A program made the position numbers and the translations under genes. A stretch of DNA of 64,000 bases from positions 1,178,001 to 1,242,000 of the forward strand of contig NZ_JACTGR010000001.1 in NCBI RefSeq assembly GCF_014489075.1, in the 5' to 3' direction. This DNA comes from Sphingomonas sp. JC676 (lineage in GTDB: Bacteria; Pseudomonadota; Alphaproteobacteria; Sphingomonadales; Sphingomonadaceae). Numbering within the stretch: position 1 is the first letter of the stretch; every line of letters begins with the position of its first letter. A model generated the notes under the pieces. The model saw nothing but the letters and a program-made list of their open reading frames with translations, was not told the origin of the DNA and did no database searches. This document shows, piece by piece, positions 7,042 to 38,939 of this stretch.

Positions 7042-7065
7042 GGAAATGTTAGCGCTAACATTTCC
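7042..7065. promoter_or_regulatory. perfect 24-bp palindrome, LacI/GalR-type operator
   Basis: Two perfect 12-bp arms (GGAAATGTTAGC and its reverse complement) meet at a central CG. The core TGTTAGCGCTAACA has the layout of LacI-family operators, including those of sugar repressors in alphaproteobacteria. It lies 85 bp upstream of the start of TonB receptor 1. No LacI-family gene is in this window, so the regulator would be encoded elsewhere. Confidence 0.8.
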
Positions 7066-7076
7066 AGACATATAAA

Positions 7077-7091
7077 TTCCACATGCTGGAA
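7077..7091. promoter_or_regulatory. TTCCA-N5-TGGAA inverted repeat (site 1 of a shared set)
   Basis: TTCCACATGCTGGAA: perfect 5-bp arms around a 5-bp spacer. The same layout recurs in other divergent promoter regions of this locus (22827, 26391, and degenerate forms at 32095 and 38925). It lies about 120 bp upstream of TonB receptor 1. Confidence 0.6.
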
Positions 7092-7309
7092 GCAATACAT
7101 AATAAGTGAGAACAGGTGCGTCAATTGCAAATTGCTCCTCTTCCCGCAAAGAGTGATTCTTTGCATTTTCAAAGGTTTATAGAAAGGGCCGAACCTGCTA
7201 GCCGACGCTTGGCCGCGCTGACCTCGAACGTGTTGCCGCGTTAGCGCTCCCATAGCGCTTGACCAGACAATCATCGTTTGAGAAAACAATCTCATCAAAT
7301 ACCATTTAC

Positions 7310-7324
7310 TCCCACAATATGGGA
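7310..7324. promoter_or_regulatory. TCCCA-N5-TGGGA inverted repeat upstream of rhaT
   Basis: TCCCACAATATGGGA: perfect 5-bp arms and 5-bp spacer. It differs from the TTCCA-N5-TGGAA sites by one base per arm. It may be a weaker site for the same regulator, on the rhaT side of the intergenic region. Confidence 0.4.
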
Positions 7325-7370
7325 TTCAACCGATTGCGGCTGAGGATTCGCACCGCCAGATCGCTGAATA

Positions 7371-7384
7371 TGTTACCGGTAGCA
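7371..7384. promoter_or_regulatory. LacI-type operator-like site upstream of rhaT
   Basis: TGTTACCGGTAGCA is a 14-bp dyad centred on CG with one mismatched pair. It resembles sugar-repressor operators of the LacI family and lies about 140 bp upstream of the rhaT start. Confidence 0.45.
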
Positions 7385-7522
7385 GCCGGAGCTGGGAGAG
7401 AAGAGCTTGCCCCAACCGACCTCGAATAAGCATGGCCGGACGCTTGCGGAAAGACCGTCCTGTCCGTGTAACGACAGAACCGCGATAACCGGTCAAACCC
7501 AGCTCTTCGAGGAGACGATGCA

Positions 7523-8671
7523 ATGACCGCCAACCCCCTTCTGGGCGTCGTCTTTCATTGGCTGGGCGGCCTCGCCTCGGCCAGCTTCTATGTCCCCTAT
7601 CGCGGCGTGAAGCGCTGGTCGTGGGAGATCTACTGGCTGACCGGCGGCATCTTCTCCTGGCTGCTGGCGCCATGGTTCTTCGCCTCGATCCAGACCAACG
7701 ACCTGCTCGGCGTGCTTTCCCGCGCGCCGACGCCCACGCTCATATGGCCGGTGATCTTCGGCATGCTCTGGGGCTTTGGCGGGCTCACCTATGGCCTCAC
7801 CATGCGCTATCTCGGCCTGTCGCTCGGCATGGCGGTGGTGCTGGGGCTGTGCACCGTGTTCGGCACGCTGATTCCGCCGATCTTTCAGGGCGATTTCGCC
7901 GCGAAGCTCCTCGACAGCCCCAGCGGCAACATAATCCTGCTCGGCCTGGCGGTAACGCTGGCAGGGATCATCGTCGTAGCGATGGCGGGCGCGCGCAAGG
8001 ACGCTGCGCTATCGGCGGAGCAGAAGGCTGCGGCGATCAGCGAGTTCAACTTCAGGAAGGGCGTCGCCGTAGCCGTCTTCTCGGGCATCATGTCGTCCTG
8101 CTTCGCTTTCGGCCTCGCTGCGGGCGAACCGATCAAGGCGATCTCCGCCGCCGCGGGCACCGGCCCCTTGTGGTCCGGCCTACCCATCCTCTGCCTCGTC
8201 ATGTTCGGTGGGCTGATCACCAACGCGGTATGGTGCACCTGGCTGATCGCCAGGAATGGCAGCGCGGGCGAGTGGTTCGGCCGCGCTGCGGCAGGTGCGA
8301 CCGCGCCGGCGAGCGAAAGCACCGGCGCCGGTGCGGCCGCGGCATTCGAGCCCGGCCATATCGGCAGCGAACCGGTACGCGCCGGCCGGCCGCCGATGCT
8401 GGCCAACTATCTGCTCTGCGCGATCGCCGGCACGCTCTGGTACTTCCAGTTCTTCTTCTACACGATGGGCGAAAGCCAAATGGGGCGCTTCGGTTTCTCA
8501 TCCTGGACCCTCCACATGGCCTCGATCATCATCTTCGGCACGCTCTGGGGCTTCGCCTTCCTCGAATGGAAGGGCGCCGCAACGCGGGTGCGCGCGATGG
8601 TATGGGCGGGCGTGGGCCTGCTCGTCTTCGCCACCGTGATCATCGGCTATGGCAACATGCTTGCGGCATGA
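7523..8671 (+). CDS. rhaT: L-rhamnose/proton symporter RhaT
   Basis: 382-residue inner-membrane protein with about ten hydrophobic helices. The opening LLGVVFHWLGGLASASFYVP and the segments SWEIYWLTGGIFSW, GMLWGFGGLTYGLTMRYLG and FQFFFYTMGESQMG are characteristic of RhaT of the drug/metabolite-transporter superfamily. It imports L-rhamnose freed from RG-I or rhamnosides. ATG 7523 has GGAG at 7511-7514; an ATG at 7518 is out of frame. The stop overlaps the start of the GH43 gene (ATGATGA-type junction), so the two are translationally coupled. A central 40-residue Ala/Gly-rich cytoplasmic loop is longer than I would expect. Confidence 0.93.
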   Translation: MTANPLLGVVFHWLGGLASASFYVPYRGVKRWSWEIYWLTGGIFSWLLAPWFFASIQTNDLLGVLSRAPTPTLIWPVIFGMLWGFGGLTYGLTMRYLGLSLGMAVVLGLCTVFGTLIPPIFQGDFAAKLLDSPSGNIILLGLAVTLAGIIVVAMAGARKDAALSAEQKAAAISEFNFRKGVAVAVFSGIMSSCFAFGLAAGEPIKAISAAAGTGPLWSGLPILCLVMFGGLITNAVWCTWLIARNGSAGEWFGRAAAGATAPASESTGAGAAAAFEPGHIGSEPVRAGRPPMLANYLLCAIAGTLWYFQFFFYTMGESQMGRFGFSSWTLHMASIIIFGTLWGFAFLEWKGAATRVRAMVWAGVGLLVFATVIIGYGNMLAA

Positions 8672-10257
8672 TGCGCGGCGCTTTCCTTCTTGCAGCCGCC
8701 CTGTCGTTCGCCGCTCCGGCCGCGGCGCAGCAGACCTATAGCAACCCGATCCTGTACGCCGATTATTCGGACCCCGACATCATCCGCGTCGGCAAGGACT
8801 ATTACCTCGTGTCGTCAAGCTTCCACTTCTCGCCGGGCATTCCGGTGCTCCACTCGCGCGACCTGGTGCATTGGAGCATCGTCGGCCATGTCCTGCCAAG
8901 GCTGCCCTTCGCCCCCGAATATGACATGCCGGGGCCGCACACGCTGGACGACACCATCTCCAAGCCGATCGGCGGCACCAAATATGCCAGCGGCGTCTGG
9001 GCGCCGAGCATCCGCTTCCATGACGGGCTGTTCTACGTCTATTTCCCGACGCCCGACGAAGGCATCTTCGTCGCCACCGCCGAGCGCCCGGAGGGCCCGT
9101 GGAGCGCGCCGGTCCAGCTGATCGGCGGTCCCGGGCTCGAGGATCCCTGCCCTTTCTGGGACGAGGACGGCACCGCCTGGCTCGTCCACTCGAAGCTCGG
9201 CGCCGGCCCGCTGATCCTCCATCGCATGTCGGCGGACGGCATGAAGGTCCTCGACGAGGGCAAGCTGATCGCCGAGGACAAGATCAACCTGCCGGTGCTG
9301 GAAGGGCCGAAGCTCTACAAGCGCAACGGTTGGTACTACATCTTCGCCCCGATCGGCGGCGTCGAGCGCGGCAGCCAGGCGGTGGGCCGTGCGCGGAAAA
9401 TCACCGGGCCCTATGAATGGCGTACCGTGCTTGAGCCCGGCACCACGCCGATCCAGGGGCCGCACCAGGGCGGCTGGGTCGAAACCCCGTCGGGTCAGGG
9501 TTGGTTCGCGCATTTCAACTCGACCGGCGCGTTCGGCCGCATCGTCCATCTCCAGCCGGTGAAATGGGTGGACGATTGGCCGATCATGGGTCGCCAGATG
9601 CCGGACCGCTTCGCGGGGCAGCCGGTGCTCACCTATCCCGTTCCCGATACGGGCAGCCCGCCGACGACCGAACGGCTGCAGGATTCGGACGAGTTCGCCG
9701 ACGCGCAGCTTGGCCTGCAATGGTCGTGGAACCATAATCCGGACGACAGCGCCTGGAGCCTGACCGCGCGCGCCGGATGGATGCGGCTCAACGCCCTGCC
9801 CGCCGAGCACCTCGTCAATGCGCGCAACACGCTGACCCAGATCCTGCAGGGGCCGTATGCGCGCTTCACCACGCGGATCGACGCAAGCCGTATGGCCGAT
9901 GGCCAGCGCGCAGGGCTCACCCTGTTCGGCGTGCGCCCGAGCTGGATCGGGCTGGTACGGGTTAAGGGCAAGACCCGCGTCACCTTCGCATCTGAGGGAG
10001 TCGAGACCCCCGGCCCCGAGCTGGCCGGCGCCATGGTCGACCTGCGCGCCGATGTCGGCGAGGACCAAACCGTGCGCTACGCCTATAGCCTCGACGACGG
10101 CCGCAGCTTCAAGCCGCTCGGCGAGCCGACCTGGCTGGCGCGCTTCTCGTGGTGGAAGGGTTCGCGCCCCGGCCTCTTCTCCTTCAATCGCGGCGGACAA
10201 GGCGGATCGATCGATGTCGACTGGTTCCATGTCGACCGTTCGGGAAGCAGCAACTGA
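8668..10257 (+). CDS. GH43 family beta-xylosidase / alpha-L-arabinofuranosidase, exported
   Basis: 529 residues. A Sec signal peptide (MRGAFLLAAALSFAAPAAAQQ) is followed by a five-bladed GH43 propeller. Catalytic acids are visible: Asp in YSDPDIIR (about residue 33), Asp in LEDPCPFWDEDG (about 157) and Glu in LEGPKLY (about 211). From about residue 335 a concanavalin-like C-terminal domain (GH43_C2 type) begins, containing GLQWSWNHNPDD. It probably removes arabinose or xylose from pectin side chains. The start is ATG 8668 or 8671, overlapping rhaT. Its TGA overlaps the next ATG, so rhaT, GH43 and the following glycosidase form one tight operon. Confidence 0.9.
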   Translation: MMRGAFLLAAALSFAAPAAAQQTYSNPILYADYSDPDIIRVGKDYYLVSSSFHFSPGIPVLHSRDLVHWSIVGHVLPRLPFAPEYDMPGPHTLDDTISKPIGGTKYASGVWAPSIRFHDGLFYVYFPTPDEGIFVATAERPEGPWSAPVQLIGGPGLEDPCPFWDEDGTAWLVHSKLGAGPLILHRMSADGMKVLDEGKLIAEDKINLPVLEGPKLYKRNGWYYIFAPIGGVERGSQAVGRARKITGPYEWRTVLEPGTTPIQGPHQGGWVETPSGQGWFAHFNSTGAFGRIVHLQPVKWVDDWPIMGRQMPDRFAGQPVLTYPVPDTGSPPTTERLQDSDEFADAQLGLQWSWNHNPDDSAWSLTARAGWMRLNALPAEHLVNARNTLTQILQGPYARFTTRIDASRMADGQRAGLTLFGVRPSWIGLVRVKGKTRVTFASEGVETPGPELAGAMVDLRADVGEDQTVRYAYSLDDGRSFKPLGEPTWLARFSWWKGSRPGLFSFNRGGQGGSIDVDWFHVDRSGSSN

Positions 10258-12944: not shown

Positions 12945-13381
12945 TGGGAGATCACCAGCAGGGTTGAAGTCGCGGACGCGATCAGGCGCCCTTTGGAATC
13001 GGTGAGCTTGGCCTCGGCAAAGGCGACGCGGCGGCCGAAGGACAGGACGGTGCCAACCGCGCGGACCTTGCCCGTCGCGGGCGTCATCGCGCGGTGATAG
13101 GCGATCTTGAGCTCGAGCGTGGTATAGGTCTGCCCCGCCGCCAGCCGCGAATGGGTGGCGATACCGCAGGCGGAATCGAGCAGGGTCGCGGTGTAGCCGC
13201 CATGGATCGTATCCATTGGATTGAGGCTGCGCGCATCGGGATCGCCTTCGAACACGGCGCGCCCCTCCTCGACCTCGACCAACGAGATGCCGAGCGTGCG
13301 CCCGATCGGCGGCTGCGCGTCGGTCGCCACCATGTGGCGGACCTGCTCGATCCCGCTGAGCGGTGCTTCGCGGTCGCTCAT
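12941..13381 (-). CDS. PaaI/hotdog-fold thioesterase
   Basis: 146 residues with a single hotdog domain. The motif MDTIHGGYTATLLDSACGIAT is the helix with the catalytic Asp/His-Gly region of PaaI-type acyl-CoA thioesterases, and LELKIAYHRAMTPATGKV forms the beta sheet. Substrate is unknown. The gene sits between the TetR regulator and the EmrA-like gene with 3-4-bp overlaps at both ends, so it belongs to the efflux operon. The physiological reason is not evident; detoxification of an aromatic or fatty acyl thioester is one possibility. Confidence 0.85.
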   Translation of the reverse strand: MSDREAPLSGIEQVRHMVATDAQPPIGRTLGISLVEVEEGRAVFEGDPDARSLNPMDTIHGGYTATLLDSACGIATHSRLAAGQTYTTLELKIAYHRAMTPATGKVRAVGTVLSFGRRVAFAEAKLTDSKGRLIASATSTLLVISQ

Positions 13382-13971
13382 GCCATGTCTCCCAAGCCGA
13401 AGCGCGCCACGATGGACGCATGCGCGCTCGCCAGGATCGCGTCCGACTGATCGATATCGGCGACCGCACGGGCGAGCGCGACAGCGCCAACCAATTCCGC
13501 GATCAGCGAAGCGGCACTGCGCTCGGGATCGGCATGGCCGATCAGCCGCAGCTTCTCCGCGACGCGACCATTGAGCCCGGCCAGGCCTTGACCGAACCGG
13601 GCGCGCGCACCGGCATCGCCGCGCGCGAGGTCGCCCGAGAGCGACGGCAGCGCGCAACCGCGGTCGCGCGCATCGCGATGCAGCGTCGACAAATAGAAAT
13701 CGACATAGGAGCGCAGCGCCGTGCGAGGGTTCGCATCCGATGCCCGCTGCTCGAACCGCGCCTGCGCATCGTCGAACATCGTGTCGAGCGCGGCGGCGAC
13801 TAGCGCATCCTTCGATTTGAAATGGGCATAGAATCCGCCATGCGTAAGGCCCGCGCGCGCCATGATCGCCGCCACCCCGATCCCGTCGGGACCCTTGGCG
13901 CGGATCTCGCGCGCGGCTTCCTTCAGAACCCGCGCCCGCGTCTGCTCCTTGTGGTCCTCGCCATAGCGCAT
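13378..13971 (-). CDS. TetR-family transcriptional regulator of the efflux module
   Basis: 197 residues. I chose ATG 13971 (MRYGEDHKEQTR), which places the helix-turn-helix at the usual distance; the frame is open further upstream but runs into the divergent promoter and gene. The DNA-binding segment is RARVLKEAAREIRAKGPDGI ... VAAIMARAGLTHGGFYAHFKSK, typical TetR, close to the AcrR/YxaF-like group. The C-terminal domain has two Cys and binds an unknown ligand. It probably represses both its own operon and the divergent MFS pump through the dyad at 13988-14011. Confidence 0.9.
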   Translation of the reverse strand: MRYGEDHKEQTRARVLKEAAREIRAKGPDGIGVAAIMARAGLTHGGFYAHFKSKDALVAAALDTMFDDAQARFEQRASDANPRTALRSYVDFYLSTLHRDARDRGCALPSLSGDLARGDAGARARFGQGLAGLNGRVAEKLRLIGHADPERSAASLIAELVGAVALARAVADIDQSDAILASAHASIVARFGLGDMA

Positions 13972-13987
13972 GGGCTTGTAGACTCCG

Positions 13988-14011
13988 TTTATATGACACA
14001 CATAATATAAA
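13988..14011. promoter_or_regulatory. divergent promoter dyad, probable TetR operator
   Basis: TTTATAT (13988-13994) and its complement ATATAAA (14005-14011) flank TGACACACATA-like sequence. A wider pair, GACTCC (13981) and GGAGTC (14020), encloses it. The 61-bp gap between the TetR gene and the MFS pump is otherwise too short for independent regulation. Confidence 0.55.
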
Positions 14012-14032
14012 GAACGATGGAGTCGAATTTCA

Positions 14033-15619
14033 ATGGTTGAATCCGCGGCTCCTGCGCCGATCGATCCGATGGCACTGCCCGACCGGACGAAGTTCCTGAT
14101 CTTCGGGATCATGGCGTTCGGCCAGTTCATGGCGCTGATCGACATCCAGATCGTCGCCGCATCGCTCAACGAAGTGCAGGCGGGACTCTCGGCCGGACCC
14201 GACGAGATCTCCTGGGTGCAGACCGCCTATCTGATGGCGGAGCTGGTGATGATCCCGTTCGCGGCCTTCCTGGCGCAGGCGCTGTCGACCCGCTGGCTGT
14301 TCGCGCTGTCCGCAGGCCTTTTCACGCTATCGAGCGCGCTGTGCGGCCTCGCCTGGAGCATCGAATCGATGATCCTTTTCCGCGCGATCCAGGGCTTTGT
14401 CGGCGGCGCGATGGTGCCCACCGTGTTCGCGACCGGCTACGCGATGTTCTCGGGCAAACAGCGCGCGATGATCCCCGCGATCCTGGGCATGGTCTCGGTA
14501 CTGGCACCCACTCTGGGGCCAACCGTCGGTGGCTGGATCACCGATGCCTGGACCTGGCGCTGGGTCTTCTACGTCAACGTTGTGCCGGGCACCGCCGTGA
14601 CTTTGCTCGCAATCTTCGTCATCCGCGTCGACCGGCCCAATCTGGCGATGCTCAAGCGGATCGACTGGGTCCATCTGGGATCGATGGCGGTGTTCCTGGG
14701 CGGGCTCGAATATGTGCTGGAGGAAGGCCCGAAGAACGACTGGTTCAGCGACAGCGGCATCGCGATCGGCGCCTGGTTGTCCATGGTCGCGTTCCTGCTG
14801 TTCCTCGAGCGCTCGTTCCGGTCGTCCTCGCCGATCGTCCGCCTCTCGCCCTTCGCCAAGCCGACCTTTGCCTTTGCCTGCATCTTCAACCTGGTGATCG
14901 GCTTCGGCCTCTATGCCGGAACCTATCTCGTCCCGCTCTTCCTCGGCCGGGTGCGTGGCTATAATGCCAGCGAGATCGGCACGACCGTTTTCATTGGCGG
15001 CATTTCGCAGCTGATCAGTGTGCCGATCGCCGCCGCCCTCTCGCAACGCATCGACCAGCGCATCGTCATCACCGTCGGCCTGGCGCTGTTCGCGTTCGGC
15101 CTCTGGCTTTTCTCGGCGATGACGCCCGAATGGGGCTTCCAGGCCTTGCTCTGGCCGCAGCTGGTACGCAGCTTCGCGATCATGCTGTGCATCGTGCCGA
15201 GCGTCGGGCTCGCGCTGGGCATCTTTGCCGGACCCGAGCTGCGTTACGCTTCGGGCCTGTTCAACCTGATGCGAAACCTGGGCGGTGCGATCGGCATCGC
15301 CGTCACCACCACCTGGCTGCAGGACATGAGCCGCCTGCATACGCTCCGCCTCGCCGAGGCGCTGGGCAACGCGCCACGCGCCGCGGCCGACACGATGGCC
15401 GGCCTCGTCCATCACGTCGGAGAGATGACGCCCGATCCGGCCCGCGCGCTGCTGACTGCGCAGGCGATGATGGGGCGGGTCGTGGGGCGCGAGGCGCTCA
15501 CGCTCGCCTTTGACGACGTGTTCCGGCTGATGGCCTGGCTGTTCGTCGCCGCGCTGGTGCTGGTACCTTTGTGCCGCCCGCCGAAACAGGCGCCTTCAGC
15601 GCCGATCGAGGCGCACTAG
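14033..15619 (+). CDS. DHA2-family multidrug MFS pump, EmrB-like
   Basis: 528 residues, about 14 transmembrane helices. MFS motifs are visible: FLIFGIMAFGQFMALIDIQI in helix 1, ISWVQTAYLMAELVMIPF in helix 2, FRAIQGFVGGAMVPTVFA in helix 4, and LGPTVGGWITDAWTWRWVFY (motif C and the following loop) in helices 5-6. It is a proton antiporter exporting toxic compounds and should work with the EmrA-like adaptor encoded divergently at 11832-12944. Having adaptor and pump on opposite strands with the TetR gene between is less common than an emrAB operon. Confidence 0.92.
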   Translation: MVESAAPAPIDPMALPDRTKFLIFGIMAFGQFMALIDIQIVAASLNEVQAGLSAGPDEISWVQTAYLMAELVMIPFAAFLAQALSTRWLFALSAGLFTLSSALCGLAWSIESMILFRAIQGFVGGAMVPTVFATGYAMFSGKQRAMIPAILGMVSVLAPTLGPTVGGWITDAWTWRWVFYVNVVPGTAVTLLAIFVIRVDRPNLAMLKRIDWVHLGSMAVFLGGLEYVLEEGPKNDWFSDSGIAIGAWLSMVAFLLFLERSFRSSSPIVRLSPFAKPTFAFACIFNLVIGFGLYAGTYLVPLFLGRVRGYNASEIGTTVFIGGISQLISVPIAAALSQRIDQRIVITVGLALFAFGLWLFSAMTPEWGFQALLWPQLVRSFAIMLCIVPSVGLALGIFAGPELRYASGLFNLMRNLGGAIGIAVTTTWLQDMSRLHTLRLAEALGNAPRAAADTMAGLVHHVGEMTPDPARALLTAQAMMGRVVGREALTLAFDDVFRLMAWLFVAALVLVPLCRPPKQAPSAPIEAH

Positions 15620-26753: not shown

Positions 26754-26775
26754 ATATTTGACCAGGAGACATTCT

Positions 26776-27888
26776 TTGGCCGCCCTCACCCATGACGTCC
26801 CGCGCAGCGAAGTTCGCGCGGCGATCGACAAGCTGATCGACAATCTCGTCAATCTGAAGGACGAGACGGGCGAGTTCCTGCTGCGCCTCGACGACGGCCG
26901 GGTGATCGACACCAAGGGCTGGAACGACTGGGAATGGACTCACGGCATCGGTCTGTTCGGCATGTACCGTTATTTCGAGCAGACCAATGACCAGCGCGCG
27001 CTCGATGTGATGCTCGCCTGGTTCCGCGACCGGTTCGCGGCCGGCACGCCGACCAAGAACATCAACACCATGTCGCCGTTCCTGACCCTCGCCTATCTGT
27101 TCGAGGATACCGGCGACCAGAGCTACCTGCCCTATCTCGACAGCTGGGCCGAATGGCTGATGGATGCCGACGGCCTGCCCAAGACCGAGGAAGGCGGCTT
27201 CCAGCACATCGTCTTCAACGACGAGAATCCCGGCGAGTTGTGGGACGACACGCTGATGATGTCGGTGCTGCCGCTCGCCAAGATCGGGCTGCTGCTCGAT
27301 CGGCCGCATTATGTCGAGGAAGCCAAGCGCCAGTTCCTCGTCCACATCAAATATCTCTTCGATCGCCAGACCGGGCTCTGGTACCATGGCTGGACCTTCG
27401 AGGGCCGCCACAATTTCGCGGGTGCGCTGTGGGCGCGCGGCAATTGCTGGGTGACGATCGCGATCCCCGAGATCCTCGACATGCTCGATCTCGAGCCCGG
27501 CGACGCGTTCCGCACCTTCCTGATCGATACGCTCGAAGCGCAGGTGAAGACGCTTGCCGAACACCAGCATGAGAGCGGGCTGTGGCACACGCTGATTGTC
27601 GACCCGACCAGCTATCTGGAAGCCTCCGCCACCGCCGGCTTCGCCTATGGCATCCTGAAGGCGGTGCGGAAGCGCTACATCTCCGCCGAATATGAGGTGG
27701 TGGCGTTCAAGGCGATCCGGGCGGTGCTCGCCAATATCGACGAGACCGGCGAACTCAAGCAGGTCAGCTTCGGCACCGCGATGGGCGACACGATGCAGTT
27801 CTACAAGGACATCCCGCTCACCTCGATGCCCTATGGCCAGAGCCTGGCGATCGTCGCGCTGGCGGAGTTCCTTCGGACGTATATCTAA
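26776..27888 (+). CDS. GH105 unsaturated rhamnogalacturonyl hydrolase (YteR-like), cytoplasmic
   Basis: 370 residues. I chose TTG 26776 because AGGAGA lies six bases upstream; TTG 26758 has no Shine-Dalgarno. (alpha/alpha)6 fold. The GH105 signature is GWNDWEWTHGIGLFGMYRYF, then NPGELWDDTLMMSVLPLAK with the probable catalytic Asp (about residue 157), HGWTFEGRHNFAGALWARGNCW and YLEASATAGFAYG. The enzyme hydrates the unsaturated GalA end of the lyase product to release rhamnose and a keto-uronate. No signal peptide is visible, so the disaccharide must first be imported, possibly by the GPH transporter at 32213. Confidence 0.92.
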   Translation: MAALTHDVPRSEVRAAIDKLIDNLVNLKDETGEFLLRLDDGRVIDTKGWNDWEWTHGIGLFGMYRYFEQTNDQRALDVMLAWFRDRFAAGTPTKNINTMSPFLTLAYLFEDTGDQSYLPYLDSWAEWLMDADGLPKTEEGGFQHIVFNDENPGELWDDTLMMSVLPLAKIGLLLDRPHYVEEAKRQFLVHIKYLFDRQTGLWYHGWTFEGRHNFAGALWARGNCWVTIAIPEILDMLDLEPGDAFRTFLIDTLEAQVKTLAEHQHESGLWHTLIVDPTSYLEASATAGFAYGILKAVRKRYISAEYEVVAFKAIRAVLANIDETGELKQVSFGTAMGDTMQFYKDIPLTSMPYGQSLAIVALAEFLRTYI

Positions 27889-30725: not shown

Positions 30726-32066
30726 TTACTGCGCCTTGGCGATCTCGACGGCATAGACATGGTTCGCACCTTCCATGTTCGAGCGGAACACGATCCACTT
30801 GTTGTCGGGCGTGAAGGTCATGTTCGGCTCGAGGCGATAGTCATGCTTGCGCATGTCGACCAATTTCTCGGCCGAGAAGAATCCCGGCGAGATCAAATTC
30901 TCGGCGCCGGGCGCGTGGATGCCGGCGACGTCGGGAATGTCGTTCGGCGTGAAGAGATAGAGATATTTCCCGTCGGGCGCGTGCGCGACCATCTCATTGT
31001 CGCCGCCGTCGCCCGAGAAATGCGTCAGGTCGCGCGAGAGGTTATAGTGCACCGACCACTCGTTGCGCTCGAGGTGGAACCACTTGCGCTTGCCGGTCGC
31101 CAGCTCATAGCCCGCCACCCAGAAATCCTGGCCGCGCGGCGTCTGGAGATCGTACCAGATCCACTTGCCGTCGGGCGAGAAGAACTCGTGTCCGGCGATC
31201 TCCATGTTCATGACGCGGTTGTGGATCAGCTTGTTGCCGGTGCCGTCGGTGCGGATCGTCCAGATCCGGTCGATCTTGTGCCACGGGCCTTCGTGGCAAT
31301 ACATGATCTGGTTCGGATCGGTCGGCGAGAACTGGATATGGTTCAACCAGTCCTTGTCGGACGCGATCACCACCTTGCGCGCACCGGTCTTGATGTCGAC
31401 CGTGAAGATCTCCATCGGAATGTGCGATTCCAGCCGGTCGTTCATCCGCACTTCCTTCGCCTCGGCAAAGGTCAGCGGCTTCCCGTCGGGGCCGTTGGCC
31501 TGGTAGTTCGCCTGGCCGAACTGCTGGCGATCCTTGGGCGCGGTGGAGTTGCCCGGCTGAAGCGGCTTGTCGTCCTGCGCCCATTGGCCGAGCAGCAGGG
31601 TTTCGTCGGCGTTGATCGATCCGATCGTGCCGCGCTCGACCTTGGCGATCTGACGGACCTTGCCGGTGTCGATATCGGCGGCGAAGATCGTCGCCCCGCC
31701 GCCGGGTCCGGATCGCTTCGAATAATAGACCGAGCGCGTCTTGCGGCCGGTGAAGAGCAATTGGAGATCCTCGCCCTTGACGATCGTCGCCACCTTCCAG
31801 GTCGCGAGCTCGACGCTCGCCAGACCCTCGGGCACGGAAATCACCATCTTGTCGCCCTGCGGCGTATAGCTGTTCTGGTGGAAATAGAGACTCGAGCTGC
31901 CGGCCTCCTGGCTGATCCGCACCACACGGTGGTGCGTCAGCGGATCGACCCAGCTCTTGGGGCCCAGCGCCGCGGCCGGTGCAACATTCTGCGCCTGGAC
32001 CATGGCAGTCCCCGGAACGAACGAAACCGTGAGCAACAGTGACGCAGCGACTGCCTTGATCTTCAT
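30726..32066 (-). CDS. PL22-like oligogalacturonate lyase family protein, exported, copy 2
   Basis: 446 residues from ATG 32066 (GAGGAGAGGG upstream). A Sec signal (AVAASLLLTVSFVPGTAMVQAQ) precedes a seven-bladed propeller. Landmarks: THHRVVRISQEAGSSSLYFH, HIQFSPTDPNQIMYCHEGPW with HKIDRIWTI (about residue 255), AGHEFFSPDGKWIWYD (about 292) and EPNMTFTPDNKWIVFRSN (about 412). The first three fit PL22 well, but the C-terminal segment lacks the His-x-His-Pro metal ligands that copy 1 retains. So it may be a metal-independent lyase, a related activity, or a binding protein. First gene of an operon, divergent from the GPH symporter. Confidence 0.78.
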   Translation of the reverse strand: MKIKAVAASLLLTVSFVPGTAMVQAQNVAPAAALGPKSWVDPLTHHRVVRISQEAGSSSLYFHQNSYTPQGDKMVISVPEGLASVELATWKVATIVKGEDLQLLFTGRKTRSVYYSKRSGPGGGATIFAADIDTGKVRQIAKVERGTIGSINADETLLLGQWAQDDKPLQPGNSTAPKDRQQFGQANYQANGPDGKPLTFAEAKEVRMNDRLESHIPMEIFTVDIKTGARKVVIASDKDWLNHIQFSPTDPNQIMYCHEGPWHKIDRIWTIRTDGTGNKLIHNRVMNMEIAGHEFFSPDGKWIWYDLQTPRGQDFWVAGYELATGKRKWFHLERNEWSVHYNLSRDLTHFSGDGGDNEMVAHAPDGKYLYLFTPNDIPDVAGIHAPGAENLISPGFFSAEKLVDMRKHDYRLEPNMTFTPDNKWIVFRSNMEGANHVYAVEIAKAQ

Positions 32067-32094: not shown

Positions 32095-32109
32095 TTCCAT
32101 ATATTGCTA
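32095..32109. promoter_or_regulatory. degenerate TTCCA-N5-TGGAA site (site 4) beside a TGGTGCACCA palindrome
   Basis: TTCCATATATTGCTA keeps the left arm and AT-rich spacer of the shared motif; the right arm has two mismatches. Directly next to it, TGGTGCACCA (32110-32119) is a perfect 10-bp palindrome. Both lie between PL22-like copy 2 and the GPH symporter, over their likely promoters. Confidence 0.4.
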
Positions 32110-32212
32110 TGGTGCACCACTATATGAGCCTGTTTGGGAAGAGTGGCAAGCGATTCCGCGCTTGATACCCCAAGGCAGAAACACCAGCGAACCGGCTGGA
32201 AGAGAGGGATTG

Positions 32213-33718
32213 ATGGCGACGAATCCGGCCCGGCCCGTACGGCTGATCAACTATATCGCCTATGGCTCGAACGACGTGCTCGGCGCAGGTTCGATGGCCG
32301 TGGTCTCGGGCTGGGTCCTGGTCTTTTACACGCAGTTCTGCGGGCTCAGCGCAGGCGAGGCAGCACTGATCTTCGCCGTCGCGCGCATCCTCGACGCGAT
32401 CGCCTCGCCGCTGATCGGCTACACTTCCGATAATTTCGGCCACACCTGGCTCGGCAAGCGCTTCGGCCGCCGCCGCTTCTTCATCCTGGCGGCGATCCCG
32501 CTCCTCCCCAGCTTCGCGCTGATGTGGCTGCCGGGCCAGCAATTCTGGTATTACCTCGTCAGCTATGTCGCTTTCGAGCTGGTCTACGCGATGGTGATCA
32601 TCCCGTATGAGACACTCGCCGCCGAAATGTCGAGCGACTACAAGACCAAGGCGAAGTTCGCCGGCGCGCGCATCCTGTGCGGCCAAGTCTCGGCAATCCT
32701 GGCGGGCTTCCTGCCGCTCTGGCTGATCAAGGCGCTCGGCCGCGACAGCGCCGACACCTTCTTCTACATGGGCATCCTCTTTGCGACGCTGTTCATGCTG
32801 ACCGCCGGGTTCCTCTACCTCTTCAGCTGGGAGCGGAACCGGCCCGAGGAAGCCCTGCCCCGCCCGGGCGCGGGCGGCGGCGCGCTGGGCGCGCTCAAGG
32901 CACTCTACCGCAACCTGTTTTCGACGATGAAGATCCGCGCCTTCCGCCTCCATCTCGGCATGTATCTGGGTGGCTATATCAGCCAGGACATCTTCAACGC
33001 TGCCTTCACCTTCTTCGTGATCTTCGCGCTGGCGGGGACGATGGCGACCGCGTCCGGGCTGCTCGGCACGCTCTACATCGTCCAGCTCGTCGCGGTGATG
33101 GCCGCGATCAACCTTGCGCTGCGCTTCTCGCCCGGCCTCGCCTATCGCATCGCCGCGCTCAGCTTCGGGCTGGGCGTGGTGGCATTGCTGACGCTATGGG
33201 GCGGCGGCACCACCGCGACCAGCTGGCTGATCTGGGTGCCGATCATCCTCGCCGGTCTGGGCCGCGGCGCGCTCAACTACATCCCCTGGGCGACCTACAA
33301 CTACATGGCCGATGTCGACGAGATCGTCACCGGCCAGCGCCGCGAAGGCAGCTTCGCCGGGGTGATGACCTTCGTCCGCAAGGCGACCCAGGCCGCGGCA
33401 GTGGCGGGCGTCGGCTTCGTGATGCAGGCGGGCGGGTTCGTCTCGGGCGCGCCGGTACAGACGCCGGGTGCGATCCACACGATCGCCATGCTCCTCGGCA
33501 TCGGCACGATCGGCGTGCTCGCGCTCGGCGTACTCGTGTCGCTGCGCTTCCACCTCAATCCGAAGACCCACGCGATACTGATGCACGAGATCGAACGGCT
33601 GCGGCAGGGCGAGGCCAATCCTTCCAGCCCCGAGGCGCGGAAGGTGGTCGAGGACCTGTCCGGCTGGCGCTACGAGCAGCTCTGGGGCAACAACGACGTC
33701 GCTGTGAAACGCGACTGA
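32213..33718 (+). CDS. GPH-family sugar/cation symporter, probable unsaturated oligo-uronide importer
   Basis: 501 residues from ATG 32213 (AGAGAGGG upstream). Twelve hydrophobic helices. The GPH signatures are visible: LINYIAYGSNDVLGAGSM, FAVARILDAIASPLIGYTSD and HTWLGKRFGRRRFFILAAIP in the first half, and ADVDEIVTGQRREGSFAGVM after the central loop. These transporters co-import glycosides, pentosides or hexuronides with H+ or Na+. Position divergent from PL22-like copy 2 and near GH105 suggests import of unsaturated GalA-rhamnose or di-galacturonate for cytoplasmic cleavage (inference). Confidence 0.9.
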   Translation: MATNPARPVRLINYIAYGSNDVLGAGSMAVVSGWVLVFYTQFCGLSAGEAALIFAVARILDAIASPLIGYTSDNFGHTWLGKRFGRRRFFILAAIPLLPSFALMWLPGQQFWYYLVSYVAFELVYAMVIIPYETLAAEMSSDYKTKAKFAGARILCGQVSAILAGFLPLWLIKALGRDSADTFFYMGILFATLFMLTAGFLYLFSWERNRPEEALPRPGAGGGALGALKALYRNLFSTMKIRAFRLHLGMYLGGYISQDIFNAAFTFFVIFALAGTMATASGLLGTLYIVQLVAVMAAINLALRFSPGLAYRIAALSFGLGVVALLTLWGGGTTATSWLIWVPIILAGLGRGALNYIPWATYNYMADVDEIVTGQRREGSFAGVMTFVRKATQAAAVAGVGFVMQAGGFVSGAPVQTPGAIHTIAMLLGIGTIGVLALGVLVSLRFHLNPKTHAILMHEIERLRQGEANPSSPEARKVVEDLSGWRYEQLWGNNDVAVKRD

Positions 33719-33795: not shown

Positions 33796-34374
33796 TCAAT
33801 GGAGGCGAACGACCCGATCAAGCAATGTCTCAGTGATGGAAACGAAGCGAGCCGGATCGTTAAAGGCACGCGCGGATAACATTGCGCCGTAGATCGCCGA
33901 CATGAAGGCATCGGCCTCGTTCTCCGGCGAACCGACCAGCGCCACGCTTCCTTGGCGAACGCCCAGGGCGAGGAGGTGGGCAAGCCATTCCGACAACTCG
34001 GCGAAGTGCGCCCTGACCGAGCGGGCAACATCCTCCGGCAGGCTCGGCAGTTCGGCAGCAAGCATCGCGGCTACGCAAAACGGCGCACTGTCGTCGGCAA
34101 TGCACCGCTCCCAATACCCGGCATAAGCGCGCAGCTGTTCGACGGCATCGAGCTCGGCATGCGCCAAAAGTTCGACCTGCGCCCGAATGATCGCGCGCGA
34201 CTGCTCGACAACCGCAGTCGCCAGGTCGTTCTTGCCCGCGAAATGGTGGTGGATGCTCGCCTTTCGGATGCCGATTGCCGCAGCGATATCGGCATAGCTG
34301 AAGCCATTATAGCCCCGAGTCATGATCAGTCGTCGGCCTTCGCTGACGATCCGCTCTGCAGTCGATCCTGTCAT
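33796..34374 (-). CDS. TetR-family transcriptional regulator
   Basis: 192 residues. The N-terminal helix-turn-helix is ERIVSEGRRLIMTRGYNGFS ... YADIAAAIGIRKASIHHHFA; the ligand domain contains APFCVAAMLAAELPSLP with a single Cys. That arrangement resembles regulators that sense electrophiles or aldehydes, but the ligand cannot be named. It is divergent from the membrane protein at 34484, and two identical operator dyads lie between them. It does not look related to pectin use. Confidence 0.9.
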   Translation of the reverse strand: MTGSTAERIVSEGRRLIMTRGYNGFSYADIAAAIGIRKASIHHHFAGKNDLATAVVEQSRAIIRAQVELLAHAELDAVEQLRAYAGYWERCIADDSAPFCVAAMLAAELPSLPEDVARSVRAHFAELSEWLAHLLALGVRQGSVALVGSPENEADAFMSAIYGAMLSARAFNDPARFVSITETLLDRVVRLH

Positions 34375-35112: not shown

Positions 35113-36021
35113 CTAAAGCGCGATCCCGAGCCGGTAGACGCGGTTGGCGTTGTCGGCGAACAGCGCTCGCTGCTCTTCCGTGGTCATGTCCGATACGATG
35201 GTGCGATAGGTCTGGAGGTGCCTATCGAAGCTGCCGAACAATTTGTCGGTCGGCACGTCGCTCGCGAACATCGCGCGGTGCGTGCCGAAGATATCGATCG
35301 TGTCGCGCACATAGCCGCGCGCCTGCTCGATATCCCATGGCCGATAGGCGAAGCCGATGCCCGAGATCTTGACCGAGACGCTCGGGCACGCCGCCAGCGC
35401 CGTCATCCCCGCGCGCCATTCCCGCCGGCCCTGCGGATCGCTCGGCACCATCATGCCACAGTGATTGAGTATCACCGGGATCCCGGGATGTCGTTCGATC
35501 AGCCTGGCGAGCGCCGCGAACTGCCCCGGATAGGCCTGCAGATCGAAGCTCAGACCATGCTTGGCTAGCAAGGCGAAGCCCTGTTGCCAGGCATCGTCCC
35601 GCGTCACGTCGCGCGGCGTGTAAGTCCGCCGCGGATCGGGGTGCCAGTTGACGATGTGGCGGATGCCGCGGACGTTGCGACGCTGCGCATGCGCCTGGAG
35701 CAGCGTGTCGACGTTCGGGTCGTCGAGCGCGGCGAAGGCGATGATCGCGTTGGGCATGCCCTTCGCATTGGCCATGTCCTGCAGCCAGTCGGTCTCGTCC
35801 AGCGCCGCCTCGGGCACCGCGCCGGCATCGACATGCACGATCCCGCGCACGTCCCACCCTTCCGCATCGGCAAGATAGTCGGGGAGCAGATAGGTGTGCG
35901 CGATCGGCTCGACGCTGCCGTTCGGCCCGTCATCGCTGAAGGGCGGCATCAACCACGGATAGCGGATCCGCTTGAGGTCCCAGAGATGGACATGGGCGTC
36001 GATGAACGGCAGGTCACGCAT
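35113..36021 (-). CDS. amidohydrolase-family lactonase, probable L-rhamnono-1,4-lactonase (LRA2)
   Basis: 302-residue TIM-barrel metal-dependent hydrolase (COG3618 type). Metal and catalytic motifs: DAHVHLWDLKRIRYPWL at the N-terminus, RGIRHIVNWHPDP, IPVILNHCGMM and AMFASDVPTDKL near the C-terminus. Members hydrolyse sugar lactones such as L-fucono- or L-rhamnono-lactone. Last gene of the minus-strand operon with L-rhamnonate dehydratase, so rhamnono-lactone is the likely substrate: it would open the product of L-rhamnose 1-dehydrogenase. A fuconolactonase role cannot be excluded by sequence alone. Confidence 0.85.
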   Translation of the reverse strand: MRDLPFIDAHVHLWDLKRIRYPWLMPPFSDDGPNGSVEPIAHTYLLPDYLADAEGWDVRGIVHVDAGAVPEAALDETDWLQDMANAKGMPNAIIAFAALDDPNVDTLLQAHAQRRNVRGIRHIVNWHPDPRRTYTPRDVTRDDAWQQGFALLAKHGLSFDLQAYPGQFAALARLIERHPGIPVILNHCGMMVPSDPQGRREWRAGMTALAACPSVSVKISGIGFAYRPWDIEQARGYVRDTIDIFGTHRAMFASDVPTDKLFGSFDRHLQTYRTIVSDMTTEEQRALFADNANRVYRLGIAL

Positions 36022-36030
36022 CGCGGGGCC

Positions 36031-36777
36031 TCAATAAGTCGTCCGGCCGCCCGACGTATCGAAGGTCGATGCGGTCGTGAAGCTGCATTCCTCGCTCGCC
36101 ATGAAGCAGACCATCGCGGCGCTTTCATGCACTTCGCCCAGCCGGCCCATCGGGATCTTGGAGCGCATATATTCGACCTGGCTCGGCGGGAGCTGGTCCA
36201 GGATCGGGCTCTCGAACGTGGCGGGGGTCAGCGCATTGGCGATCACGCCCTTGCCCGCGAGCTCCTTGCCGAGCGACTTGGTCAGGCCGAGCACGCCCGC
36301 CTTGGTCGCCGAATAGGCGCTGGCGTTGGGATTGCCTTCCTTCCCCGCGACCGACGAGACGTTGACGATGCGACCATAACCGTTCGCGAGCATCAGCGGC
36401 ACGACCGCGCGATTGCAGTAGAACAGTCCGTTCAGGTTGACGTTGACCACCTTGAGCCAGCCGTCGATCGGGAATTCGTGCACGGGCACCGTAGGGCCGG
36501 TGATCCCGGCCGAGCACACCAGGATGTCGACCTTGCCGAGCGCCTCGGCGCTTGCTGCCGCCGCAGACGCGACGGCATCGGCGTCCGACACGTCGAGCTG
36601 CACGCCATGGACGCCGCCAAGCCGCACGCATGCTGCGGCAAGACTGGAGCCCATGTCCCAAACGGACACGGTGCCGCCTTCCGCCAGGATGCGTTCGGCC
36701 ACGGCATAGCCTAAGCCCGACGCGCCACCGGTGATGATCGCCGCCCGCCCGGCAAACCTTCCGGCATAAATGCTCAT
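36031..36777 (-). CDS. SDR, probable L-2-keto-3-deoxyrhamnonate 4-dehydrogenase (LRA5)
   Basis: 248 residues from ATG 36777, which overlaps the preceding stop (ATGA). Rossmann motifs: AAIITGGASGLGYAVAERIL for NAD(P) binding, LVCSAGITGPTVPV (NAG-like, here SAG), active-site VNVSSVAGKEGNPNASAYSA followed by TK, giving Ser, Tyr and Lys. The C-terminal part reads MASEECSFTTASTFDTSGG. In the Sphingomonas non-phosphorylating pathway an SDR oxidises 2-keto-3-deoxy-L-rhamnonate at C4. That fits its place between dehydratase/hydrolase and lactonase genes. Substrate is inferred from context. Confidence 0.85.
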   Translation of the reverse strand: MSIYAGRFAGRAAIITGGASGLGYAVAERILAEGGTVSVWDMGSSLAAACVRLGGVHGVQLDVSDADAVASAAAASAEALGKVDILVCSAGITGPTVPVHEFPIDGWLKVVNVNLNGLFYCNRAVVPLMLANGYGRIVNVSSVAGKEGNPNASAYSATKAGVLGLTKSLGKELAGKGVIANALTPATFESPILDQLPPSQVEYMRSKIPMGRLGEVHESAAMVCFMASEECSFTTASTFDTSGGRTTY

Positions 36778-37646
36778 CCGAGCACCTCGTCGCCCAGGTT
36801 GCGCCACGCGACGACATTTTGGGTCTGGGTGCCCAGCCTGTCGATGCCGAGCGTCATCGTGTCGCCGGCCTTCAGATAGACGGCTTCGGGCTTCTTGCCC
36901 TCGCCCACGCCCGGGGGCGTGCCGGTGATCAGCAGGTCGCCCGGATAGAGCGTCACATACTGGCTGACATAAGCGATGATCTCAGCGACATTGAAGATCA
37001 TCGTCCTGGTGTTGCCGGTCTGCATCCGCGCGCCGTTGACGTCGAGGAACATGTCAAGCGTCTGCGGATCGCCGATCTCGTCGGCGGTCACCAGCCAAGG
37101 GCCGACCGGGCAGAAGGTGTCGTGGCCCTTGCCCTTGCTCCACTGGCTGCCGCGCTGCTTCTGGTTGAAGCGTTCGGAAACGTCGTTGGCGACCGCATAG
37201 CCGGCGACGTGCGAAAGCGCGTCTGCTTCCTCGACATAGCGCGCGGTCTTGCCGATGAAGACGGCGAGCTCGACTTCCCAGTCGCTATGCGTCGAATCCC
37301 GGGGGATCATCACTTCGTCGTTCGGGCCAGTCAGACTCGAAAGCGCCTTCATGAACATGATCGGCTCGGTCGGGATCGGTAGGCCGGATTCGATCGCATG
37401 GTCCTCATAATTGAGGCCGATCGCGACGATCTTGCCGATGCCCTTCAGCGGCACGCCGTAGCGCGGCTGGCCTTCGACGACCGGCAACGCTGTCGGGTCG
37501 AGCGCCGTCAGCTTGGCCAGGCCATCGGCGCCCAGCGCCGCGGGGGTCAGGTCGGCGATTTCGCCGGAAAGATCGCGAAGGACGCCATCGGCGTCGATGA
37601 GTCCGGGCTTCTCGCTTCCGCGCGAGCCGTAACGGCAAAGCTTCAT
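36774..37646 (-). CDS. fumarylacetoacetase-fold hydrolase, probable 2,4-diketo-3-deoxy-L-rhamnonate hydrolase (LRA6)
   Basis: 290 residues. FAH-fold landmarks: IGLNYEDHAIESGLPIPTEP, FMKALSSLTGPND, HSDWEVELAVFIGKTARYVE (metal-binding Glu residues), YAVANDVSERFNQKQRGSQW and LLITGTPPGVGEGKKPEAVY. The Mg/Mn-binding Glu/Asp set of C-C-bond hydrolases is present. In the alternative rhamnose route the enzyme splits the 2,4-diketo acid to pyruvate and L-lactate. Its pairing with an SDR, and the absence of any KDR aldolase gene, support that route. Co-transcribed 13 bp after the dehydratase. Confidence 0.88.
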   Translation of the reverse strand: MKLCRYGSRGSEKPGLIDADGVLRDLSGEIADLTPAALGADGLAKLTALDPTALPVVEGQPRYGVPLKGIGKIVAIGLNYEDHAIESGLPIPTEPIMFMKALSSLTGPNDEVMIPRDSTHSDWEVELAVFIGKTARYVEEADALSHVAGYAVANDVSERFNQKQRGSQWSKGKGHDTFCPVGPWLVTADEIGDPQTLDMFLDVNGARMQTGNTRTMIFNVAEIIAYVSQYVTLYPGDLLITGTPPGVGEGKKPEAVYLKAGDTMTLGIDRLGTQTQNVVAWRNLGDEVLG

Positions 37647-37659
37647 GGGATGGTCTCGC

Positions 37660-38853
37660 TTAGTGTGTGTAGGGACGATGCATGGAAATGTCGCGGTTCA
37701 GCTCGACGCCGAAGCCCGGCGCATCGAGCGCACTGGCGCGCAGGCGGCCCTTCTCCGGCACCGGCTCGCCGATCAGCTGCGGGTGGAACATCGGCACGAC
37801 CTTGTCCGCCTTGGGCGCCATCATCAGGAATTCGGCGAACGGGCTGTTATGCCGCGTGATGACGAAATGATAGCTATAGACCGAGGAGCCATGCGGCACG
37901 ACCAATTTGCCGCGCGCATCGGCCAGCGCCGAGATCTTGAGCAATTCGGTCACGCCGCCGCACCAGCCCACATCGGGCTGGATGATGTCGCAGCAATCCA
38001 TCTCCATCAACATGCGGAAGCCCCAGCGGGTCGCCTCATGCTCGCCGGTGGTGACCAGCATGCCGCGGGGCACGTTGCGCTTCAGCTCGGCATAGCCCCA
38101 ATAATCGTCGGGACTGATCGCCTCCTCGATCCATTTCAGGCCATGTTCGTGCGCGGCGATCGCAAGGCGCGTGGCATAGTCGACGTCGAGCGCCATCCAG
38201 CAGTCGAGCATCAGCCAGAAATCGGGGCCGACGCGCGAGCGCATCTCGGCCAGCTCGGCGATGTTCTTGCGCAGCCCTTCCACGCCCTCGGCCGGGCCGT
38301 GATGGAGCGGCATCTTGCCGCCGATGAAGCCCATTTCCTGGGCGAGATCGGGCCGCGCGCCGGTGGCGTAGAATTGCAGCTCGTCGCGCACCGCGCCGCC
38401 AAGCATGTGATAGACCGGCTCCTGCCGCAGCCGACCGAGCAGGTCCCACAAAGCAAGGTCGACGCCCGAGATGGCGTTCACCACCAGCCCCTTGCGCCCG
38501 TAATATTGGGTCGAGAAGTACATCTGGTCCCAGATCTTCTCGTAGTCGGCCGGATCGCGCCCCTCGAGGAAGCGGGCCAGATGCCGCTCGACGATGAACG
38601 CTGCGGGCTCGCCGCCCGTGGTCACCGCGAAGCCGATCGTGCCGTCCTCGGCCTCGATCTCGACCACCAACGTGCCGAGCACGTTGATGCCGAAGCTCTG
38701 CCGGCTCTGACGATATTCGGGATAGCGCGCCATCGGCGTGGCGATATGATCGTCGATCCAATGGCCGTCGCCCTGATCGTGATAATCGGCGCCGCCGCCG
38801 CGCACCACGAACGCGCGTACATGCTTGATCTTCGGCAGACCCCGAACCGTCAC
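37660..38853 (-). CDS. rhmD: L-rhamnonate dehydratase (enolase superfamily, LRA3/RhmD)
   Basis: 397 residues. GTG 38853 is preceded by GGGGAG. The N-terminal capping domain contains [20 protein letters not shown] and [19 protein letters not shown], segments I recognise as specific to L-rhamnonate dehydratase. Metal ligands of the barrel are visible: Asp in [12 protein letters not shown], Glu in [13 protein letters not shown] and Glu in [25 protein letters not shown] follows, and the catalytic His is in [14 protein letters not shown]. It converts L-rhamnonate to 2-keto-3-deoxy-L-rhamnonate. First gene of the minus-strand catabolic operon, divergent from the IclR gene. Confidence 0.94.
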
Positions 38854-38924
38854 GCTTCACTCCCCTTTTCCGCTGAGGACATCCAGACATTGCTCCGCGA
38901 CCGGTCAAAATCGCGGACAAATCG

Positions 38925-38939
38925 TTCCAACATGTGATA
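38925..38939. promoter_or_regulatory. degenerate TTCCA-N5-TGGAA site (site 5) in the rhmD/iclR divergent region
   Basis: TTCCAACATGTGATA has a perfect left arm and a right arm with two mismatches. It is 72 bp upstream of rhmD. A weak match alone, recorded because of its location. Confidence 0.3.

Follow-up and report, generated by a model that had tools for sequence, protein, structure and literature searches.

A 64,000-nucleotide stretch of the Sphingomonas sp. JC676 genome (contig NZ_JACTGR010000001.1, positions 1,178,001 to 1,242,000), hereafter the window, carries a rhamnogalacturonan-I/rhamnose locus with several divergent promoters, which raises the question of whether a single regulator connects its operons and through which operator. 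A first-pass annotation had proposed that one regulator, possibly the IclR-family protein encoded at 39047, reads a TTCCA-N5-TGGAA operator shared by these promoters. The comparative evidence described here supports a shared operator and a single regulator, and IclR (39047) is very probably the binder, as predicted from the DNA and protein sequences. The operator itself has to be redrawn: TTCCA-N5-TGGAA is present, but as one form of a candidate 15-17-bp dyad, TNYCA-nnATR-TGRNA, apparently of the group-1 IclR type, and two such dyads placed 20 bp apart often form the unit.

Paired dyads in the divergent promoters of the locus

The sites fall into five divergent regions. Between the genes for TonB-dependent receptor 1 (TBDT1; 3841–6957, minus strand) and a RhaT-type rhamnose transporter (7523–8671, plus strand), the putative operator dyad TTCCACATGCTGGAA (7077–7091; rank 5 in the window with matrix M2, see below) accompanies a tandem operator (7290–7324) in which the weak dyad TCTCATCAAATACCA at 7290 stands 20 bp from the strong dyad TCCCACAATATGGGA at 7310. 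A second tandem operator (22807–22841), composed of AGTCAAATATTGGTA at 22807 and TTCCATATGGTGGAA at 22827 (22827–22841; M2 rank 1), separates the minus-strand TBDT2-PL22a-PL26a operon from the plus-strand gene for the PL26-type rhamnogalacturonan lyase b (22882–25647). In this operon, TonB-dependent receptor 2 (TBDT2; 19757–22711, the likely start being the ATG of MKIFIGHRGR) is followed by the PL22-type oligogalacturonate lyase a (18381–19676) and, distally, by the PL26-type rhamnogalacturonan lyase a with PcRGLX domains (15626–18298). Between the gene for a DUF6250 protein (25653–26348, minus strand) and rhaM, encoding L-rhamnose mutarotase (26439–26753, plus strand), which is followed by a GH88/GH105-family unsaturated glycosyl hydrolase gene (26758–27888, plus strand), lie ATCCATATTATGGAT at 26391 and TACCATATAATAAAC at 26411 (26391–26425). 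The fourth pair, TTCCATATATTGCTA at 32095 and CACCACTATATGAGC at 32115 (32095–32129), is found between the operon of the PL22-type lyase b (PL22b; 30726–32066, minus strand) and the gene for a major facilitator superfamily (MFS)/sugar transporter (32213–33718, plus strand). The genes flanking these four regions, together with the GH88/GH105 gene, are the predicted targets. Finally, the iclR gene (39047–39877, plus strand) is divergent from rhmD, encoding L-rhamnonate dehydratase (37660–38853, minus strand), and this region holds the single dyad TTCCAACATGTGATA (38925–38939, site A), whose centre precedes the rhmD start by 79 bp, as well as a tandem operator (39018–39052) of TCTCACTTTATGGGA at 39018 and TATTATGAGATGAGA at 39038, with centres at -22 and -2 relative to the iclR ATG.

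All sites listed in the first-pass annotation (7077, 7310, 22827, 32095, 38925 and the 17-bp dyad TATCCATATTATGGATA at 26390–26406, which is perfect except for its unpairable central base) were recovered, and all lie between divergent operons, in the five regions above. That annotation had overlooked the dyads 39018 and 39038, which form a pair across the iclR start, and the dyad 26411, which has the 17-bp dyad (26391) as its 20-bp partner. It had also missed three weaker dyads (7290, 22807 and 32115), each of them separated by exactly 20 bp from a stronger one.

A scan of the 4.87-Mb genome located perfect TTCCA-N5-TGGAA at five places (10 strand matches) and a reversed control pattern at none. 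Two of the five places are intergenic, both in the window; the other three lie inside mechanically called open reading frames (ORFs), so that a perfect match by itself does not mark a promoter. Since, moreover, most real sites deviate from it, it was rejected as a definition of the operator. When up to two mismatches were allowed, the window contained 25 matches as compared to a shuffle mean of 11.4, none of 100 shuffles reaching 25. The form TNCCA-N5-TGGN'A, in which the second base is paired across the dyad, occurs exactly three times in the window (7077, 7310 and 22827), always in divergent intergenic DNA. The consensus derived from orthologous loci, TWCCANNATRTGRWA, which site A matches exactly, has three exact matches in the 4.87 Mb, all within the locus; its ambiguity letters W and R were chosen when the orthologue alignment had been seen and the sites of the window were already known. 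Allowing one mismatch adds 32095 within the window plus 12 places elsewhere, 10 of them inside ORFs. The remaining two appear to be intergenic. One, C1:411092, is next to a potassium transporter; at the other, C12:315072, an antisense ORF covers the site, yet Pfam supports divergent GH2 and TonB-receptor genes.

Matrices built from sites of other genomes gave a similar picture. Matrix M1 comprises 18 distinct middle copies from iclR/rhmD regions; in locus L044 and several Sphingobium loci, its seed settled on a copy other than site A, and these were excluded by hand. Its five best window positions are 38925, 22827, 7077, 32095 and 7310. Matrix M2 combines two sets of sites, none of them from this genome: 27 were taken at the 30 closest iclR loci and 21 in comparator polysaccharide utilization loci (PULs). 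These 21 comparator sites (12 at iclR/rhmD, one at rhmD/lra1 and eight elsewhere) were picked by eye, for lying near mapped genes or for a high score, from 35 M1 matches of at least 11 in ∼365 kb, 14 being omitted. The top seven M2 matches of the 64 kb (22827, 38925, 7310, 39018, 7077, 32095 and 26411) are all located in the five divergent regions, and seven matches score at least 14 in the window, versus a simulated mean of 0.22 and a maximum of two in 100 runs. For matrix M3, 17 non-iclR sites were picked from M2 matches in the comparators, several of them unassigned to a mapped gene. Its top eight window matches all fall in the five regions, which amount to ∼1.7% of the window (1072 bp, calculated with an early TBDT2 start; with the revised start the regions are slightly larger and the M3 result stands).

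The 20-bp pairing is frequent among the strong sites. Around 153 strong sites, a second dyad scoring at least 7 was found exactly 20 bp away in 59 cases, both sides summed, whereas the other offsets from 16 to 65 had on average 0.63 partners, including 20 at offset 30 that stem largely from two iclR/rhmD copies. None of 21 control anchors had a 20-bp partner; in these counts a pair in which both members are anchors counts twice, and the anchor threshold was 7 for the control and 13 for the test. As orthologous promoters inflate this count, a separate test was restricted to the window. There, five of the seven strong sites have a 20-bp partner, one per divergent region, with P between 5e-5 and 6.5e-4 on local composition (Markov flanks; 7290/7310, 0.00065; 22807/22827, 0.0004; 26391/26411, 0.00015; 32095/32115, 0.0004; 39018/39038, 5e-5).

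Recurrence of the predicted operator at orthologous promoters

A protein search of genome contigs yielded 39 loci encoding relatives of IclR (39047), one of which (L058, a 3.8-kb fragment) was excluded from the iclR-promoter, M2, pairing and cross-class analyses, leaving 38. The iclR/rhmD intergenic region is where the motif is most conserved, with recurring copies in the 30 closest loci. Several loci have three of them: a copy close to rhmD, a middle copy with the consensus TACCA-NNATR-TGRTA, and a copy covering the iclR start that reads TCTCA-CTTTA-TGGGA, or a variant of it in Sphingobium. In a cross-class test, M3, a matrix free of iclR sites, reached at least 12 upstream of iclR in 36 of the 38 loci, a score attained by three of the control windows (n = 780) and by 17 of the shuffles (n = 760), so that the regulator's own promoter carries a conserved site, as expected of an IclR regulon. 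Among the eight more distant loci (Caulobacter, Asticcacaulis and others), six reach this score. The first-pass annotation had named rhmD with a "perhaps"; rhmD is a predicted target, and this reservation appears unwarranted, rhmD/iclR being the core of the predicted regulon.

As a separate observation, a further dyad on the rhmD side, ∼100–200 bp upstream of iclR and 30 bp from the middle copy, is present in several loci (L022–L049, L059), most clearly as CCCAATATGTGGGAA in Sphingobium, and is not evident in the window. Across the 30 closest iclR loci, the counterpart of window positions 39007–39050 shows strong conservation, Sphingobium having a variant of its own, and the sequence TTTACT-16-TAGGAT within this stretch ends near the ATG, so that iclR is possibly leaderless.

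The motif also recurs beyond the iclR promoter. Among 199 genomes of the family, 10 besides this one encode a PL26 relative (three of them from one genus). In nine of these 10, an IclR orthologue with 60% identity or more is encoded no further than ∼28 kb from the PL26 gene; G155, the remaining one, has a 45%-identical relative beside PL26. In these comparators, the motif precedes rhaM, TonB receptor genes, PL26 genes and iclR/rhmD, depending on the genome, in line with the recurrence at orthologous promoters that a shared operator predicts. One genome (G171) has a perfect TTCCACTATGTGGAA upstream of rhaM, and in another (G029) iclR is located elsewhere, yet the site is retained at the rhmD/lra1 divergent promoter. 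The 19 comparator M1 matches of at least 13.4 are distributed over iclR/rhmD (nine), rhmD/lra1 (one), rhaM (five) and a TonB receptor (one), three being unassigned. In 57 loci, M2 gave 141 matches of at least 14, with 90 at iclR/rhmD and 29 unassigned, M2 having been trained on part of them. Many loci carry the iclR/rhmD site with no PL26 relative above 45% identity in the fetched surroundings (up to ∼20 kb), which hints at a way in which genes of polymer degradation can come under the control of a catabolic regulator.

The predicted regulator, its mode of action and the alternatives

The domains of IclR (39047), HTH_IclR (PF09339, 39.7 bits, cut-off 22) and IclR_C (PF01614, 128.1 bits, cut-off 24), exceed the curated cut-offs. 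Its structure model (mean predicted local distance difference test score, pLDDT, 82.9; predicted template-modelling score, pTM, 0.65) best matches Thermotoga maritima IclR (1mkm, TM 0.68) and also matches the TtgV-operator complex (2xro). The recognition helix TRSTTHRLA is conserved in most aligned orthologues and similar in two paralogues. According to the main text of Suvorova and Gelfand (2021, PMC8222616), the group-1 IclR motif is GKTYCRYW3-4RYGRAMC, tandem IclR-family sites have centres 18–22 nt apart in 94 orthologous groups, favoured site centres are -22 and -3 to +1, and IclR-family proteins can bind as tetramers. Judged by eye on the counts of 48 sites, the operator described here fits this consensus, with T (25), A (14), G (5) or C (4) as third letter and a loose first position (G), and the pairing peak at 20 bp, seen for five of the seven window anchors, falls within the published spacing.

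Pfam and NCBIfam profiles applied to the proteins of the 64-kb window delineate the pathway that such a regulator would serve. The locus encodes the two TonB-dependent receptors, RhaT, GH43 (8701–10257, downstream of RhaT and followed by an MGH1-like glycoside hydrolase ending at 11831), the two PcRGLX-type lyases, the two PL22-type lyases, GH28-type enzymes, rhaM, GH88/GH105 and the MFS sugar transporter; genes of the alternative L-rhamnose pathway then follow, together with LutA/LutB-type proteins. The PL26 label of lyases a and b is our assumption, adopted from the first-pass annotation and from general knowledge of PcRGLX-domain lyases. The diketo-hydrolase version of the pathway is indicated by L-rhamnose 1-dehydrogenase Lra1 (39897–40661, plus strand; NF053807, 454 bits, cut-off 400), RhmD (NF011968, 773 bits, cut-off 393) and a 2,4-didehydro-3-deoxy-L-rhamnonate (2,4-diketo-3-deoxyrhamnonate) hydrolase of the LRA6 type (36774–37646, minus strand; NF053535, 550 bits, cut-off 500; structure match 8gsr), all above their equivalog cut-offs. 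The lactonase and LRA5 steps are assigned by context only, to an amidohydrolase-2 protein that is a probable rhamnonolactonase (35113–36021, minus strand; fuconolactonase profile 99 bits, below its cut-off of 400) and to a short-chain dehydrogenase/reductase that is a probable 2-keto-3-deoxy-L-rhamnonate dehydrogenase (36031–36807, minus strand). Downstream of lra1, the LutA/LutB-type lactate oxidation proteins (42429–44590, plus strand; CCG and LUD/LutB_C domains) fit the output of the diketo-hydrolase route, whose product is L-lactate.

The sites, their conservation and pairing, their genome-wide locality and the gene content suggest a model, to which we assign a probability of about 0.8, in which the sites are operators of IclR (39047), acting as a repressor that is relieved by an effector. 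Each of the five divergent regions would present one dyad pair 20 bp apart, two regions (7077, 38925) holding an extra single dyad, and as the paired half-sites alternate every 10 bp on one face of the DNA, a dimer of dimers could bind. Without inducer, IclR would occupy these sites, covering the -10 element and start of iclR (autorepression) and of rhaM and blocking the other divergent promoters. Once rhamnogalacturonan-I fragments are imported, L-rhamnose would enter the Lra1/lactonase/RhmD/LRA5/LRA6 route, and a pathway intermediate, most likely 2-keto-3-deoxy-L-rhamnonate, would release IclR, so that uptake, depolymerization and catabolism are switched on jointly. IclR (39047) is thus likely an autorepressor released by an intermediate of the rhamnonate pathway, and 2-keto-3-deoxy-L-rhamnonate is proposed as the inducer by analogy with KdgR, the effector of which is 2-keto-3-deoxygluconate.

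Promoter elements, all read by eye, favour repression and autorepression: the iclR operator overlaps TTTACT-16-TAGGAT and the ATG, and the second dyad of the rhaM operator (26411), whose pair is centred at -21 and -41, contains TATAAT. A sigma-70 scan was of little help (five promoter-like sites versus a shuffle mean of 2.8).

Several results weigh against this model. The ninth M2 match of the window (24120, score 12.1) lies inside the PL26b gene, and clean control DNA, ten 20-kb stretches (200 kb), also has strong matches, one of at least 14 with M1 and two, of 16.9 and 18.1, with M2 (the 14-kb surroundings of three coding matches, used once in the control, were dropped because they had been chosen for holding a match). 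No full 20-bp partner, on either side, was found for 7077 (best -5.4; P 0.04) or 38925 (P 0.26). Two loci fall short in the cross-class test (L053, 1.7, no site; L056, 10.9, weak), and 30 of the 38 iclR promoters come from close relatives and are therefore not independent. G155 keeps a paired rhaM site with an IclR of only 45% identity, and the divergent promoter of a GH115/GH2/TonB-receptor locus beside another IclR gene on contig C12 carries TTCCATATTATGGTT. Lastly, some sites are far from the starts for simple occlusion: 7310 is ∼206 bp from RhaT, 7077 ∼127 bp from TBDT1, and the pair 22807/22827 is separated from the probable start of TBDT2 by ∼103 and 123 bp.

These distances bear on the alternative that survives best, namely that IclR (39047) acts as an activator or in mixed roles and not as a plain repressor. 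The sites 7077, 7310, 22807/22827 (for TBDT2) and 38925 lie 79–206 bp upstream of starts, and IclR-family activators exist, such as PbaR in Sphingobium (a title in the reference list of PMC8222616). This is countered by the iclR and rhaM operators, which overlap the likely -10 element or start, and by the DUF6250, PL22b and PL26b sites, whose centres are 36–70 bp from the starts. We consider such an activating or mixed role unlikely; the distant sites at RhaT, TBDT1 and TBDT2 (∼100–206 bp) leave room for activation or looping there.

It is less probable still that a paralogous IclR (C12:308226 or C32:185435, ∼41% identical) binds the sites, alone or with the locus IclR; on this reading, sphingomonad IclR paralogues would use a common operator code, and PULs would be linked by cross-talk. 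Six IclR-family genes are present in the genome, the paralogue recognition helices (LSKTTTHRLA) resemble LTRSTTHRLA of IclR (39047), and the G155 and C12 sites mentioned above fit such sharing; since the C12 PUL beside the 41% paralogue carries TTCCATATTATGGTT, paralogues may share or compete for sites. Against this, conservation is strongest at the promoter of the locus iclR itself, 20 kb around the C32 paralogue hold no M1 match above 9.5, and the linkage to PL26 favours the IclR orthologue (nine of 10 comparators). The C12 locus (L123 8232–18344, G000:C12) is a second PUL in its own right, with GH115, GH2, GH88 and a TonB receptor next to the paralogue. A broader reading, which we find unlikely, would make dedicated IclR paralogues of sphingomonads general PUL switches, in the way that SusR/HTCS proteins are in Bacteroidetes. 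They would all recognize the same composite operator, made up of four half-sites phased at 10 bp; the rhamnose regulator would have captured the rhamnogalacturonan-I genes by the spread of paired operators, and sister PULs such as the C12 GH115/GH2 locus would cross-talk.

A LacI-, GntR- or TetR-family binder is very improbable. LacI-type regulators do control rhamnose/rhamnogalacturonide loci in other lineages, as seen in the main text of PMC3870299. Two TetR-family genes (13378–14169 and 33796–34374, both minus strand) lie in the window, so that iclR is not the only locus-encoded candidate, contrary to the first-pass annotation. A perfect 20-bp LacI-type palindrome, AAATGTTAGCGCTAACATTT, is located at 7044–7063 upstream of TBDT1, where a second regulator may act. 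This palindrome is, however, a different sequence, and LacI was rejected as the shared regulator, as the exact 14-bp palindrome core, TGTTAGCGCTAACA, occurs once in the genome and is not common to the targets. Compared with the consensus expected for the LacI, GntR and TetR families, TNYCA-N5-TGRNA, its 20-bp tandem pairing and the -22/-2 placement fit the IclR family. That the similarity is due to chance or a by-product of AT-rich promoters is hardly credible: many of the two-mismatch matches in the window are coding and 17 of 760 mononucleotide shuffles of iclR upstream DNA reach 12, but the out-of-genome matrices, the cross-class test and the pairing on local composition stand against it.

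Relation to known systems

If correct, the model provides a testable one-regulator wiring for a whole rhamnogalacturonan-I/rhamnose locus in a sphingomonad and would let the cell switch on polymer breakdown and rhamnose use together. It also yields a matrix for annotating regulon members in related genomes, and the paired-operator spacing is directly testable.

IclR (39047) has KdgR, the IclR-family regulator of pectin/oligogalacturonate use in gammaproteobacteria, as its best NCBIfam match (129.5 bits); membership was rejected, the score being far under the equivalog cut-off of 275. The KdgR motif, RWWGAAACGNCGTTTCAKKA, as given in the main text of PMC8222616, differs from the operator described here. 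TtgV, in complex with its operator (2xro), shares the IclR-family fold, with 24% identity in the structural match. Its ligand class differs. The RhaR, RhiR and RhmR regulators (DeoR, LacI and AraC families; Rodionova et al., 2013, PMC3870299) likewise govern rhamnose and rhamnogalacturonide regulons, but the word "IclR" occurs zero times in the main text of that study.

In E. coli, an IclR-family gene, yfaX/rhmR, also adjoins the L-rhamnonate dehydratase gene, and YfaX/RhmR, 28% identical to IclR (39047) over 242 positions, is described in PMC12445098 as a regulator of rhamnonate catabolism. Unlike the system described here, E. coli uses an aldolase route (yfaU), yfaX lies on the same strand as rhmD and not divergently, and no PUL genes are within the 13 kb shown. 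The DNA upstream of E. coli yfaX (L126 7190–7250) contains TTCCA and CTGGA boxes in another arrangement.

We take COG3254 to be rhamnose mutarotase and COG3618 to be amidohydrolase. Both are named in the main text of PMC8222616 as frequently associated with IclR regulators, so that related regulogs may already be listed in its supplementary tables. The operators described here resemble the published group-1 operators in dyad type, tandem spacing and the iclR pair at -22/-2; unlike in these, the second position of each arm is variable (T/A/C/G) and, in several sites, paired across the dyad, and TonB receptors and rhamnogalacturonan lyases are among the predicted targets. The main text of PMC8222616 contains no word beginning with "rhamn". 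No IclR regulon for a sphingomonad rhamnogalacturonan locus was recognized among the literature matches listed, which covered titles and abstract beginnings, with subscription papers and supplementary tables outside the scope. Overall, IclR-like regulators beside rhmD in E. coli, the group-1 operator form and tandem spacing are already known; the frequent pairing of dyads at exactly 20 bp is an addition to the first-pass annotation, and none of the matches listed was recognized as describing such a PUL-wide sphingomonad regulon.

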